Below are positions 3,946 to 9,639 of a DNA stretch of 64,000 nucleotides, piece after piece (position 1 is the first letter of the stretch; every line of letters begins with the position of its first letter). The stretch is taken from contig NZ_CP016294.1 of NCBI RefSeq assembly GCF_001704155.1, positions 2,229,501 to 2,293,500 of the forward strand. Reading direction: 5' to 3'. Source of the stretch: Stenotrophomonas rhizophila. GTDB taxonomy: Bacteria > Pseudomonadota > Gammaproteobacteria > Xanthomonadales > Xanthomonadaceae. The translations under genes and the position numbers were made by a program. Below the pieces are notes generated by a model. It did not search any database. It was not told the origin of the DNA and saw nothing but the letters and a program-made list of their open reading frames with translations.

Positions 3946-6900
3946 CTAGAGCTCCGGTGGCGCTGCTGCAGATCTCTTCAGCATCACGTCGCCATATGCG
4001 GTCATCGCCATGGCGTACTGTGGTACGTACCCGAACTTCATATCAACGGCAGCGTTGGCCACGAAGGTCGAATCCAGTGCGGTCTCATCCCGCTCCCATT
4101 CGGCCATGAACGTTTCCAACCAATATCCCGAAATGATCGGCGTAATCGGCCACGGCGAGGCGATGACGACCCGCGAGCCGGCCATCAGTAGGAGCTTGGG
4201 AAGACCGATCGTGGTGTTGGAGTGCGGGTGCCGATCCACGCGGCCACCGCTGCAGATGAACAAGATCACCAATTCAGTCCCGGCCAGAGCTTGAGTCAAT
4301 GCCCGCGGCGAGATCACCAACTCCTTCTCATCGGTCACCCGGTGCAAAAAGCGACCATCGGTGCCGACACTCCCATGTGCCGCGATAACGGCGATCTGTG
4401 CATCGACTAGGTCCTCAGGCAGCGAGCCATTGGTATCGACCCTAAAGCCGTACTGCTGAAACGCCGTGTCGGTGCGCTGGATCACTGCAACCAAGGCGCT
4501 GTTATCGACCACCTCGCCCGGGTCGGATATCCATGCCACACGTCGGGCATGGGTGATCCTTGGCCGCGTACGGGTGGAGTGGAGCCATGTCAGCGAGGGC
4601 ACGTAGCCAATGGCGTGGTGCTGGCCCCAGAAACCGTCCCCCTTTACCATCAGGTTGAGCGGAATCTGGAGCAGCGCCGGCTCCCCCACGACGACCAGCT
4701 TGGCCGTCTCGGGCAGCGGTATCGCCAAGGGCGTCATGCTCACGAAAATCTCGTTGTTACCCTCTTCGCGCTCAATCTTTCCGTATCGAAGCGGGTAATT
4801 TTCGCTCCAGGTGGCCAGCGCATCAACAAAAGATCCCGCCTCCCGGGCCGGTCGCGCTACCGTATCGCCTTGCTCGGTCGAGGTCAGTACCGTCAGTTCG
4901 CCATCAATGTCCAAGCCCATCATCATGGCCGCCCCTGCCTCTGGGCGGATTTCATGCAAGTATCGCGAGGGCCAACTCACGTCCAAGACGCGCTCGATCG
5001 CCACTGGGTCCAACTCGCGGTCCGCCAACAGCTCAATCGCGGTTGCCGCGTCCTCGGCAGACAGCGCCGACTCGGACAGGATTCGTCGGGCGGCAAGCTC
5101 AGCGGCCAGAAGGTCTCCCGGCGCATCGTCCGCATGTCGCGCCACTTCCACGCGATTATGCAGACGTACCGCATCTTCAATGGTCGGATGAGCTGCCGAA
5201 ATTGCGTCCAGGTACGCTCGATCCGCGGCCGTCACATGTTCCATAGCCGCCACTTTGATCTCTTGGACATGCTTCGGTATCACGCCACCAACGCCTTCGA
5301 ACAACCCCATCGATTGCACCAGCAGCGCAAGCGCCGGGATCAACTCCTCGTTCATGCCTGCGACCGAGACGTAGTGATTGGCCGTGTCTTGCACCATCTG
5401 CTCAAGCATGGCCGGGGTATAGCGCTGGCTATCCATCAACCGCAGTCCCAGCTCTAGCGATTGCATGCGGGCGCGTCCGGCCGGATTGTCGGCGACCATT
5501 CGCTGCAGGCGCTTGAGAGGCACCAGCAGATCCCCCGCGAACGGGAACAGGCCTATATCACGTACGCTGCGGAACAGGGTGTAGGTCTCCCACCACAGCG
5601 TCGGGGCATCGACCGGCACATCGATTGCGAACGCAGACGAGAGACCAATCAGCGCATCCACCGGATGCCGGGAGCGCTGATACAGGTCTGCATACGCGCC
5701 CCACGCCAGCCGGCCCCTAATCTTGGAGGAGCCGGCAAGCTCAAGAATCTGCTCGGCCAAGTCGCGACTTCTCTGCACCTTACCGTCCATCGCCCGTCGG
5801 CTGGCGATCAGTCGGAGCATGTTCATGTCGGAGAGCGTGTCGGGGACTTTCCTGGCGAGCATCACACCCACAAAGGCCATGTTTTCTACATTGGCCGCCT
5901 TGTCAGGCTCCCACGTCTCGACCAGGTAGTCGACTGCCCTTGACATCGCCTCGAGCAGTTCGGCCGGGTCGTCCGCTCCGATGACAGCGTCAGGCAGTGC
6001 TGTACTGCTCACATCAATGGCACGTGCCTGGCCCATCCAATGATCAGCACGCTGCATGAACGCACTAAATTCCTGAGGCGAGGCAACCTTCACCATCGGG
6101 GGATCGATGATCGCGGCCACGGCACGTGTGGCCAGCTCCATCGTTTGCGTGACGAGCAACGCAAGGCCCCAGTTACCACTGGTCTCGACAGTGAACAATC
6201 CACGGAAGTATTCCCGCAATTCCGGATCATCTGGGTGCGTGGCGACGTAGTCGCGCAGCCGCTGGAATACCTCTTTGTAGAAGCCTGCCTCCTGTACTTC
6301 CTTTCTTTCCAGCAGTACTCGCCTGAGCGCGGCAATCAATATCCAATTGATGCGCCGAGCACTTTCCCCGTCTAAGGACGTCTGTATCGCCAGTGCGATA
6401 GCCTTACCCGCCTCATTGAGAACTAGCAGTCGGTGCGCCCCGCACAGCCTCGCAAAATCGCGTTGCTCGGCCGACCAGGGTTCACTTACCTCGGCCAACG
6501 CCTTTACCCCTTTGGTGGAGAGATCGCGCAATGAGTCGGCAATGAGAGCATCGTAGCCGGCGAGGGTTATGTGGCGAATCACGCGGCTGATCCGATCACC
6601 GGACACCTCCCGACTCCACCGCAGCAGCAAGCGCGCGCGGTAGTCCGTTAGGGCCTCACTCTCCGGATACAGCCCGCGTAGGCGCTCGTACACCAGCACT
6701 TCCAGCTCGCTATCGTCCAGCCCAGTGCACGATCCGAGTGCGCGCGCGAGGTGAGACTCCTCATTCACTTCCACTACGCTTTGCTTGATCAGCGTCTTCG
6801 CCGACTCGGGATCGCCTCCCTCCTGCGCCATCCATCCAAACCGGAGCGCGTTTTCGGACGGAACTTTGACGCCACTGACAAGTAGCGCGCGGATTTCTTC

Positions 6901-7728
6901 GGCCGCCCGCTCCCGCTCCTTGCCCCGAAAGAGCACTTGGATCCTCAGTTGCCGCTTTAGGCCTGCACTCAGATCAGATGCCTCAATCTGCGCTAACGCC
7001 TCCCGCGCACGCCCCATCTCTGCTAGGGCCGCCCACTGCTGCATGTTCTCTACGACAAAGGTATTCTGCTGCACCTCTTCTTTAGAACCAAAGCTGGCGA
7101 CAGTCAGATCGTAGATCGCCTCGATCGCCGCCTTGTTGGCCTCCCGCATCACGAGAAGCCCGGGGATACTGAACATGATCGCGCTTTCATTGGTGTGCAC
7201 ATGGTCAATGCAGTCTGGAAGCCATGCGCTGACGTTAGGCACCCAGATATCCTCTGCCAACAGCGCCGTGGCGCGCCCGTGCGGCGCACCGGCCACCACC
7301 CTGGCATCCCGATAGATCTCCGCCATTGGCACCAAGATGAAGTCGCCGTCGGATCGCACCACCTGGGCTACCAACGAGGCGGCGTTTACGTCTTCGCAGC
7401 GCACGATCGTAACTCGCTTTCTGATGATGCTCACTTCCTCGCGCGGCAGTGGAGACCCTCGAAGCTCGCTGCCGCCTTGCGAGATAAGTGCGATGATCTC
7501 ATCATCGTTCTTTGCCCACGCTGCCGCGGGCGGCGCTATCACCACGACGCGCGGGAAGGCCGGCTTACCCTCGGGGGATTCGCACATCAGAATATGCGCT
7601 GTCGTCCTGCCTACCGCCGGGTCGGTATCGACGCCGATCAGTAACGTGGCGCGCTCAGCACTTCCCCTGTAAATCGCAGCAGGATCGAAGCCCATCACGC
7701 GTGATGGGGTCGTTGTACTGGTTGTCAT
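3946..7728 (-). CDS. large CHAT-domain (caspase-like) protein
   Basis: The product is 1260 residues. The last 170 residues form a CHAT peptidase domain: the catalytic His is in VIAAHGS (about His1118), and the catalytic Cys is in ILFICSGG (about Cys1159). An ASPWPI segment typical of CHAT follows. Residues about 250-800 are alpha-helical and Ala/Leu-rich, resembling TPR-like solenoid sequence. Residues 1-200 form a mixed region without a recognised motif. CHAT proteases act in defence, for example in the type III-E CRISPR Craspase and as caspase-like effectors beside NTPases and sensors. No NACHT or nuclease domain is visible. The gene converges on the four-TM gene. Its own promoter must lie in the gap upstream of 7728. 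Its substrate and trigger are unknown. Confidence 0.85.
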   Translation of the reverse strand: MTTSTTTPSRVMGFDPAAIYRGSAERATLLIGVDTDPAVGRTTAHILMCESPEGKPAFPRVVVIAPPAAAWAKNDDEIIALISQGGSELRGSPLPREEVSIIRKRVTIVRCEDVNAASLVAQVVRSDGDFILVPMAEIYRDARVVAGAPHGRATALLAEDIWVPNVSAWLPDCIDHVHTNESAIMFSIPGLLVMREANKAAIEAIYDLTVASFGSKEEVQQNTFVVENMQQWAALAEMGRAREALAQIEASDLSAGLKRQLRIQVLFRGKERERAAEEIRALLVSGVKVPSENALRFGWMAQEGGDPESAKTLIKQSVVEVNEESHLARALGSCTGLDDSELEVLVYERLRGLYPESEALTDYRARLLLRWSREVSGDRISRVIRHITLAGYDALIADSLRDLSTKGVKALAEVSEPWSAEQRDFARLCGAHRLLVLNEAGKAIALAIQTSLDGESARRINWILIAALRRVLLERKEVQEAGFYKEVFQRLRDYVATHPDDPELREYFRGLFTVETSGNWGLALLVTQTMELATRAVAAIIDPPMVKVASPQEFSAFMQRADHWMGQARAIDVSSTALPDAVIGADDPAELLEAMSRAVDYLVETWEPDKAANVENMAFVGVMLARKVPDTLSDMNMLRLIASRRAMDGKVQRSRDLAEQILELAGSSKIRGRLAWGAYADLYQRSRHPVDALIGLSSAFAIDVPVDAPTLWWETYTLFRSVRDIGLFPFAGDLLVPLKRLQRMVADNPAGRARMQSLELGLRLMDSQRYTPAMLEQMVQDTANHYVSVAGMNEELIPALALLVQSMGLFEGVGGVIPKHVQEIKVAAMEHVTAADRAYLDAISAAHPTIEDAVRLHNRVEVARHADDAPGDLLAAELAARRILSESALSAEDAATAIELLADRELDPVAIERVLDVSWPSRYLHEIRPEAGAAMMMGLDIDGELTVLTSTEQGDTVARPAREAGSFVDALATWSENYPLRYGKIEREEGNNEIFVSMTPLAIPLPETAKLVVVGEPALLQIPLNLMVKGDGFWGQHHAIGYVPSLTWLHSTRTRPRITHARRVAWISDPGEVVDNSALVAVIQRTDTAFQQYGFRVDTNGSLPEDLVDAQIAVIAAHGSVGTDGRFLHRVTDEKELVISPRALTQALAGTELVILFICSGGRVDRHPHSNTTIGLPKLLLMAGSRVVIASPWPITPIISGYWLETFMAEWERDETALDSTFVANAAVDMKFGYVPQYAMAMTAYGDVMLKRSAAAPPEL

Positions 7729-8198
7729 CTGACTTCTCCTTGTCTGTTGACGACGAACTGGTGAGGCATGAGGATATCAGGCCAATCTCGAGTAGAGACA
7801 CCGTTGTATGCGGCCAGGCTGATACGGCATGACGGCTGGGCGATTGGAGATCGCAAGGGTATTGCCGCCCGACGGAAGAAGGCGCGCGGCATGCCACCGT
7901 ATTCTCCACCTCCCTTACCTGGCGAAGGATAGGCGCGGAATTTCACCCGACATGCTTATCCGGAATCCTAGGCGAAACACGTCCACCTTGGTAAAGGGCC
8001 AACAACTCACACCACCGGGCGTTTCCTACCCCCGATAAATCTCCCTAATCCTAAAATCGGATGGCGGCTCCCCTCCCCTATTCGTTAGGCCAAGGTCCGC
8101 TCCCGGCCAAAAGCAGACCTTGGGTAACGCCTTAGTTAAGCCGCGCCGCTAGGCGGCATCGGCTTGAATTAAGTGCTAGGCCCACGCTGGAGGCCTAC
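7729..8198. other. intergenic region with palindrome and integron-type sites
   Basis: No convincing gene is present. The left part must contain the promoter of the CHAT gene, though I see no clear -35/-10 pair. The right part holds a GTTAGGC core-like heptamer (8084-8090), a dispersed palindrome copy (8095-8118) and the attC-like site at 8122-8181. CCGAT (8032-8036) and ATCGG (8056-8060) form a further inverted repeat upstream of GTTAGGC, which could be part of an older, longer attC. Confidence 0.5.
8122..8181 (-). repeat. integron attC-like recombination site (60 bp)
   Basis: The sequence has the architecture of a 59-base element. Terminal heptamers are GGGTAAC (8122-8128) and GCTAGGC (8175-8181). 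Between them are inverted arms TTAAGCCG (8136-8143) and CGGCTTGAA (8160-8168), and an inner GCCGC/GGCGGC pair. Its core closely resembles the attC of aadA cassettes as I recall it. It sits 18 bp past the stop of the minus-strand gene at 8199-8633, in the orientation expected for that gene's cassette. The outer heptamers deviate from GTTRRRY/RYYYAAC. Confidence 0.72.
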
Positions 8199-8633
8199 CT
8201 AATATGACACCAGAACCTTGAGCACAACCCTAGAGTGCGTGTCAGGCTCGCCGGTTGCACCTGGCGTGGGATTTTTGAGGGGATCGAACATCATTGCGAA
8301 CTCGATGCGCTTCCCAATTTGATGCGCAGAGAGGTCCTTTCTCCGATTTGCTACGCAGCTGTACTTGTAGAGGGTTCCGTCATCAACGGTCATCTCAAAA
8401 CCCTGACCGTCATTGTGCATCCCCTCGCGACAGATTCGAGTAATTCTCCCCGCGAGGGTTTGAACCGGCGAGACTCCTCGCTCAATGTTGGCCCACCACT
8501 CCGGTGAGCCAAAGAGTCCGTAGGTGCCTTTGAGGCCAAATGGACGGCGCTTGTCCAAAGTGAGCACCTGCGTATCAGCCACCTGCTGCGGATCTGCATT
8601 CAGCTCTTCTTGAAGTGAGTAGATTAGTCTCAT
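8199..8633 (-). CDS. hypothetical protein, probable integron cassette gene
   Basis: A 144-residue protein with no recognised domain and no signal peptide or TM segment. It is moderately charged, with a central segment TRICREGMHNDGQGFEMTVD and a strand-rich C-terminal half (RIEFAMMFDPL, SRVVLKVLVSY). The stop codon is 18 bp from a 60-bp attC-like site, the usual arrangement of a one-gene cassette. About 200 bp upstream (8634-8838) has no gene I can support, so the cassette would have a long leader. Integron cassette genes are often orphan proteins; function cannot be assigned. Confidence 0.6.
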   Translation of the reverse strand: MRLIYSLQEELNADPQQVADTQVLTLDKRRPFGLKGTYGLFGSPEWWANIERGVSPVQTLAGRITRICREGMHNDGQGFEMTVDDGTLYKYSCVANRRKDLSAHQIGKRIEFAMMFDPLKNPTPGATGEPDTHSRVVLKVLVSY

Positions 8634-8838
8634 CCGGGCCTAGTGTCCGAGATAGGAGCATTGGCGAAGCCAGTTCATCTTGGTTGAGGTGTTAGGAGTG
8701 AGCAATCGCTTCGGCCACAGCTTTTGCCAAGGATTGGCACTGCCGCTAGTACAGCACCAATGGAGTTCCACCTGGATTGAGCGGCCAAGGTCTCCGGAAC
8801 CTCCCATACCGGGTGGCGCAACACCTGTGCGTCATCAC

Positions 8839-8898
8839 TCGGAACTACGGAATCAAGCCGACGCGCGCAGAGGTTTCGGTTTGGATGAAGTGCTAAAC
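8839..8898 (-). repeat. second integron attC-like site (60 bp)
   Basis: Same length as the site at 8122-8181 and alignable to it without gaps. Shared blocks are AAC at bases 5-7, AAGCCG at 17-22 and AAGTGCTA near the end. Terminal heptamers are TCGGAAC (8839-8845) and GCTAAAC (8892-8898). Arms ATCAAGCCGA and TCGGTTTGGAT are inverted repeats. The stop codon of the gene at 8893-9222 lies inside the terminal heptamer, as often seen in cassettes. Confidence 0.65.
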
Positions 8899-9222
8899 GC
8901 GCTCAATGGGAGGGCGCCACATAAATTGTATGGCCTCAATTGATCTGTCCCGAGGGACGAGTATGCGAACGTAGGAACTCTCAATGTGCGGCTTGTTATC
9001 CGACGGCTTGTAGATCTGCAGCTCATAAAAATGGCGCTCTGTCGGGACGACGCCGATGAGCCTTTCCCAGCCCGGGCCGGGGGTGCCTCCAGTAAGCAGT
9101 CCATGTGCCACAAGCTCATCGAGTTCGGCAGGGGTCAGGTGATCGGCGGCCGACGTACGGAAAGGCAATCGTGCCAGCTCCATGGCCTCTTCGTATGTTC
9201 TCCGAGCGTAGAGATGTGTCAT
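8893..9222 (-). CDS. hypothetical protein, probable integron cassette gene
   Basis: A 109-residue protein of unknown function. The N-terminal part (THLYARRTYEEAMELARLPF) is helical, followed by TPAELDELVAHGLLTGG and a strand-rich C-terminal half ending FMWRPPIERV. It has no TM segment or signal peptide. The stop codon TAG lies within the terminal heptamer of the attC-like site at 8839-8898, which supports a real gene carried on a cassette. It is in the same orientation as the neighbouring cassette gene. Confidence 0.6.
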   Translation of the reverse strand: MTHLYARRTYEEAMELARLPFRTSAADHLTPAELDELVAHGLLTGGTPGPGWERLIGVVPTERHFYELQIYKPSDNKPHIESSYVRILVPRDRSIEAIQFMWRPPIERV

Positions 9223-9270
9223 GTGCGCCCAATTACCTGATAGACGGACCCGTGCGTCCAGTCATACGAC

Positions 9271-9639
9271 CTAGCCACAATGCGCCGTATGACGGCCCCC
9301 CTGATTCAGCTCGATCTTAGGATTGCTGAGTCCAGCTATCAAGCGAGCGTATAACCGGGCCCAGGTGGGCTCAGTGACCACCGCAAGTTCGCTCCAGTAG
9401 AAGTGCAGATGTCTGCTCTGGATCGAAAGCCGAATTTGGCACGGACCCAACGGCTCCTTTCCTGCGGGGTGTCCGCTTCCGGCCAGAAGCGGACGGAGTC
9501 CATTTTCTGAAGAGCGCTTGATGCTATAGGTCACGGAACGTGACTGTCCATGCTGAACAGTCAGTACTCCACCAAATCTGCCGCGTCGACACAGCCGAAC
9601 CCGGTCGCCCAGCGCGAGGTCAACCCTTGGTCTGTCCAC
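9271..9639 (-). CDS. doubtful ORF crossed by a dispersed palindrome
   Basis: A 122-codon reading frame. The first 45 residues could be genuine (RVDLALGDRVRLCRRGRF resembles a small beta-barrel start). The middle is translated from a copy of the dispersed palindrome (9471-9494), which normally lies between genes. It may be a gene disrupted or extended by repeat insertion, or chance. No domain is recognised. Confidence 0.25.
   Translation of the reverse strand: MDRPRVDLALGDRVRLCRRGRFGGVLTVQHGQSRSVTYSIKRSSENGLRPLLAGSGHPAGKEPLGPCQIRLSIQSRHLHFYWSELAVVTEPTWARLYARLIAGLSNPKIELNQGGRHTAHCG
9471..9494. repeat. dispersed palindromic repeat copy
   Basis: Arms GTCCGCTT and AAGCGGAC around a CCGGCCAG centre. 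Lies inside the doubtful reading frame at 9271-9639. Confidence 0.75.

Follow-up and report, generated by a model that had tools for sequence, protein, structure and literature searches.

Arrays of at least two serial attC sites with no integrase are classed as CALINs, and IntegronFinder, which defines them, detects no attI outside class 1, where such sites are poorly described (PMC9024848). The attI of such an array would therefore go unseen, and attI-headed arrays are now placed among the CALINs because no attI is searched for outside class 1 (PMC9024848), a category that is usually read as degraded integrons. In Xanthomonas, the chromosomal integron lies downstream of ilvD and CALINs are reported away from the ilvD locus (PMC12444791); in class 1 and 2 integrons the Delta-attI cassettes carry an attI that replaces the attC downstream of an ORF (PMC12901181). 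The array of Stenotrophomonas rhizophila described here resembles each of these in part. Its few degraded cassettes are those of a CALIN, it belongs to the same order as the Xanthomonas off-locus CALINs and is likewise eroded and remote from intI, and its attI is displaced from an integrase as in the Delta-attI cassettes. Unlike a plain CALIN, however, it possesses a homologous attI with a promoter and palindromic boundaries; no attI is named for the Xanthomonas CALINs in the available part of their description; and in contrast to the Delta-attI cassettes, a full attI stands upstream of normal attC cassettes.

The array lies in a 64,000-nucleotide stretch, hereafter the window, which is part of a complete 4.20-Mb single-contig genome, and all of its genes and recombination sites are on the minus strand. 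The original prediction from the DNA letters was of two 60-bp attC-like sites at 8122-8181 and 8839-8898, and the two stretches are indeed found there and give an ungapped alignment on the minus strand. Their attC identity is borne out by a covariance model (R1) with the canonical R/L pairing (R''-L''-L'-R' fold). It was trained, with the window excluded, on 31 attC taken from integrase-linked arrays of other genomes, and its two top matches in the whole 64 kb are 8120-8181, with 54.8 bits (E 1.1e-11), and 8840-8898, with 26.3 bits (E 3e-4). The same search finds a third, eroded site at 8636-8697 (22.1 bits, E 0.004) that had been overlooked and that retains the CCTAACA and CTTCGC motifs. The terminal site, 8120-8181, is the best preserved, and similar sites do exist elsewhere, as BLAST of the region against 91 genomes of the genus returns more than 100 relatives, which are clustered attC sites. 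This site folds better than shuffled sequence on both strands (z -1.9 and -2.2). The site 8840-8898 shows no such advantage over shuffled sequence (z +1.0 and +1.4), and its minus-strand arm reads AAACCG in place of the proposed AAGCCG, so that it is visibly eroded.

The three sites divide the array into cassettes of plausible layout. The ORF of cassette 1 (8893-9222, 109 aa; ORF list and profile search) has its start codon a few bp past the attI core, and its stop codon TAG, ending at 8893, sits in the R'' box of the attC 8840-8898, just as had been proposed for the terminal heptamer; the protein shows a weak likeness, below cut-off, to the HI1450/DUF440 dsDNA-mimic family. Cassette 2, closed by the eroded attC, has a possible ORF of 55 aa (8640-8807) that is known from the ORF list only and is of doubtful coding status. 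The 144-aa ORF of cassette 3 (8199-8633) matches no known family in family searches and begins 3 bp beyond the eroded attC 8636-8697, as expected of a cassette gene. Judged from sequence, both predicted sites and the third one are genuine, degenerate attC, and the array is one of three cassettes.

Just upstream of the first cassette ORF, the segment 9220-9321 recurs at the head of other arrays in a BLAST search of 91 congeners. In 20 aligned copies conservation extends as far as GTTRRRY and is followed by immediate divergence into cassette sequence, as is characteristic of an attI. A model (R2) built from 25 homologous copies with the window excluded recognizes 9226-9365 on the minus strand with 100.8 bits (E 1.9e-30), and this segment is homologous to the attI found beside a real IntI in other genomes and ends at the cassette crossover. 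The homology between solo and IntI-linked copies starts sharply at GGGCCCGGTTATACG (9348-9364, minus strand; alignment A1), the beginning of the conserved module and an inverted repeat of the segment 9255-9269. A consensus scan places a Pc-like promoter, TTGATA-17-TAAGAT, at 9314-9342 (minus strand) in nearly invariant columns of A1; the family consensus is TTGTTA-17-TAAGAT, and the predicted promoter would read into cassette 1. By its homology the segment 9226-9365 is identified as an attI (type B), the putative cassette-docking site of the array itself, with a Pc-like promoter. The crossover core of this particular copy is eroded, reading ATTGGGC at 9227-9233 against the consensus GTTAGGC, so the intact GTTRRRY is lost through mutation of the crossover G (GTT to ATT) and no functional claim is made for it. 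The possibility that the attI leader forms an RNA structure or riboswitch was also considered and rejected: RNAalifold yields 14 pairs with one compensatory change, and with almost no covariation the conservation is treated as that of a DNA site.

The claim that no intI accompanies the sites, which makes the array a CALIN, stands for the complete genome as well as for its surroundings. No integron integrase (TIGR02249) is encoded anywhere in the genome, where XerC/D-like proteins give only partial matches, the best with 77 bits against a cut-off of 265, and a search for an integrase elsewhere in the genome found only XerC/D and other tyrosine recombinases. Likewise, no intI remnant was found near the array, so that three serial attC are present without an integrase and the attI lacks the neighboring intI of a complete integron. 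Within the genus, an integron integrase is present in 16 of 91 Stenotrophomonas genomes.

The same attI is, however, found beside an integrase in other members of the order. In Dyella sp. S184 (L095) a divergently transcribed intI is located about 120 bp away from the attI, which stands at the head of at least 12 attC. Three further cellular genomes and two contigs of the viral collection are arranged alike; the loci with this attI beside intI include L095/L150, L142, L144 and L158. The integrase, here named IntI-B, is a second Xanthomonadales integron integrase; the three proteins tested score 373-383 bits on TIGR02249 with its cut-off of 265. IntI-B shares only about 50% identity with the Stenotrophomonas IntI, so that the attI of the window is that of another integrase lineage. 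Every full-length IntI of Stenotrophomonas is of the non-B type, and one partial copy (L110) fits neither type closely. The IntI-linked attI of Stenotrophomonas was considered as a parent of the window attI and rejected, as the model finds no match there. The Dyella integron resembles the window array in that attI and promoter are homologous over about 140 bp and an attC array follows, and differs in its intI about 120 bp upstream and in having no palindromic left end of the kind described below.

The array is delimited by copies of a dispersed 24-bp palindrome, P (GTCCGCTTYCGGCCARAAGCGGAC), which counted with a strict pattern occurs 14 times in the 64 kb compared to about 0.2 in shuffles, while a loose pattern yielded background only. 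The copies start at window positions 8095, 9471, 13546, 13978, 20205, 28549, 29591, 30018, 30079, 36253, 52460, 57451, 59467 and 60107. P is similar to REP/REPIN repeats (PMC3733652, PMC3116915) in being a short dispersed palindrome, but its consensus is devoid of the GTAG or CGTC tag of the described REP families, and it bounds an integron unit. On the left, an exact P (9471-9494, GTCCGCTTCTGGCCGGAAGCGGAC on the minus strand) lies 45 bp before a second palindrome, P-prime (9409-9434, minus strand), which comprises CGATCCAGAGCAGACAT and its left arm and is part of the solo-attI left end. On the right, P (8095-8118) lies just past the terminal attC. The suggestion that the sites could be the tail of a bigger array consequently falls away, as this is a whole three-cassette array with its own attI and promoter at 9226-9365 and P on both sides. 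About 70 bp past the right P (8024-8094) recur after P in other Stenotrophomonas (L076, L077, L078, L079), with or without an attC.

The boundaries are shared with other solo units, whose left end has the order P, 43-45 bp, P-prime, usually about 50 bp, and attI. The 43-45 bp spacing is kept in 10 of the 12 solo units where both palindromes were found, and P-prime is present upstream of 49 of 66 solo attI (1.9 expected) versus none of six IntI-linked sites. At the other end, 15 of 21 attI-led arrays have a P no more than 35 bp beyond their terminal attC, compared with 3 of 120 internal attC, none of 11 other array ends and a background of 0.6%. In tandem units (L062, L065, L067, L071) P or P-prime comes after an attC and precedes the next attI, and the P-attI-ORF-attC segment could be excised as a cassette.

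The attI family is widespread in the order. Of the 91 Stenotrophomonas genomes 52 carry it, with up to seven copies each, and across the order it occurs in 73 of 397 genomes, which belong to 24 genera but only two families. Upstream DNA of 1150 bp or more was available at 71 distinct sites, of which 66 have no adjacent intI and five do; tblastn detected no intI fragment upstream of the solo copies, many of which are decayed. A scan with the exact core matches Pseudoxanthomonas, Luteimonas, Rhodanobacter, Lysobacter, Dyella and Corticimicrobacter, a betaproteobacterium in which the core alone is conserved. In representatives of Pseudoxanthomonas, Luteimonas and Corticimicrobacter (L084, L085, L092) conservation is confined to the final 24-29 bp of the attI, and attC still follow. 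Spread on plasmids or phages was considered and rejected, as the attI had no match in plasmid or phage collections; the attI core is present on eight contigs of a viral collection.

Taken together, it is highly probable that 8095-9494 represents an eroded solo attI unit in which P and P-prime are followed by an attI with a Pc-type promoter, by three cassettes and by a closing P. Cassettes would have been captured at the attI by an integrase supplied in trans or formerly present, the proximal ones would be transcribed from Pc, on which the remaining genes would depend, and the array is now probably frozen and dead for recombination, given the mutated crossover G of the attI and the degradation of two of the three attC. 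The main rival holds that each solo array is a separate relic of a complete IntI-B integron, left behind after deletion of its intI. Complete IntI-B integrons do occur in the same families, many solo copies are decayed, and integrase loss is common in Xanthomonas (PMC12444791), but the rival fits poorly with the derived left end of P, 43-45 bp, P-prime and attI, which is common to the solo copies and absent from the six IntI-linked ones and would not be expected from independent deletions. As the solo copies also lack upstream intI fragments, and as many as seven of them occur in one genome with no IntI-B in Stenotrophomonas, independent integrase loss appears unlikely.

Much less probable still is an ordinary CALIN formed by cassettes inserted at a chromosomal attG with no involvement of attI. 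The arrays do occupy scattered chromosomal positions, and attG insertion has been documented for IntI1 (cited in PMC12901181 and PMC12444791), yet attG sites are not long conserved sequences, whereas the window array is headed by 140 bp of homologous attI and promoter ending exactly at the crossover core. A reading of the attC-like sites as chance palindromes or as repeats of the REP type can be practically dismissed: the region is rich in palindromes and the second and third sites are weak, but an independent model returns 54.8 bits (E 1e-11) for the terminal site, and three serial sites on one strand, each after an ORF and near an attI, are hardly of that kind.

The solo unit is the preferred reading of the locus. 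For its homologue in S. maltophilia SJTL3 (L069), P-like sequence borders the filled site on both sides, and in four other genomes of the S. maltophilia group (G022, G001, G006, G010) the flanks are joined precisely with a single P. Other species carry a decayed attI at this locus, and the empty state needs two to four changes on a poorly resolved tree, on which gain and loss are not polarised. The search for an empty site at the locus of the window itself found none among the genomes of the genus, because the flanks are too poorly conserved, the left-flank DNA having no match in the genus and the right flank only partial matches. Spread of each unit as a whole is suggested by the number of copies, by the derived left end that they share and by the precision of the empty site. 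It is conceivable, as a tentative proposal, that P-attI-cassettes-P is a distinct class of dispersed non-autonomous integrons, docking sites with a promoter that move as units within Xanthomonadales genomes by targeting the 24-bp palindrome or recombining at it and that integrases load with cassettes in trans, which if true would provide a genome with several independent cassette-expression platforms.

Stand-alone attI-headed arrays in at least 24 related genera have apparently not been described before, and a limited search covering part of the literature found no earlier report of attI-headed CALINs. The attI family implies that many CALINs may be self-contained capture-and-expression platforms without a local integrase, several to a genome, and raises the testable question of whether integrases serve attI in trans. 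Many clinical resistance cassettes have been proposed to derive their attC from those of the Xanthomonadales type (PMC8352920), and the sites of cassette docking and expression in these bacteria bear on that origin.

Some further observations concern the surroundings of these units. The array adjoins a gene for a 1260-aa CHAT-domain protein (window 3946-7728), the searched part of which (from 5800) has no DNA match in other genomes of the genus. Beside the SJTL3 unit there is an ORF (L069, 3733-4173) that by eye is similar to rifampin ADP-ribosyltransferase (Arr). Finally, the same chromosome as the window carries a truncated attI relic followed directly by an attC relic (L224, G000:C1:2347416-2347512, minus strand).
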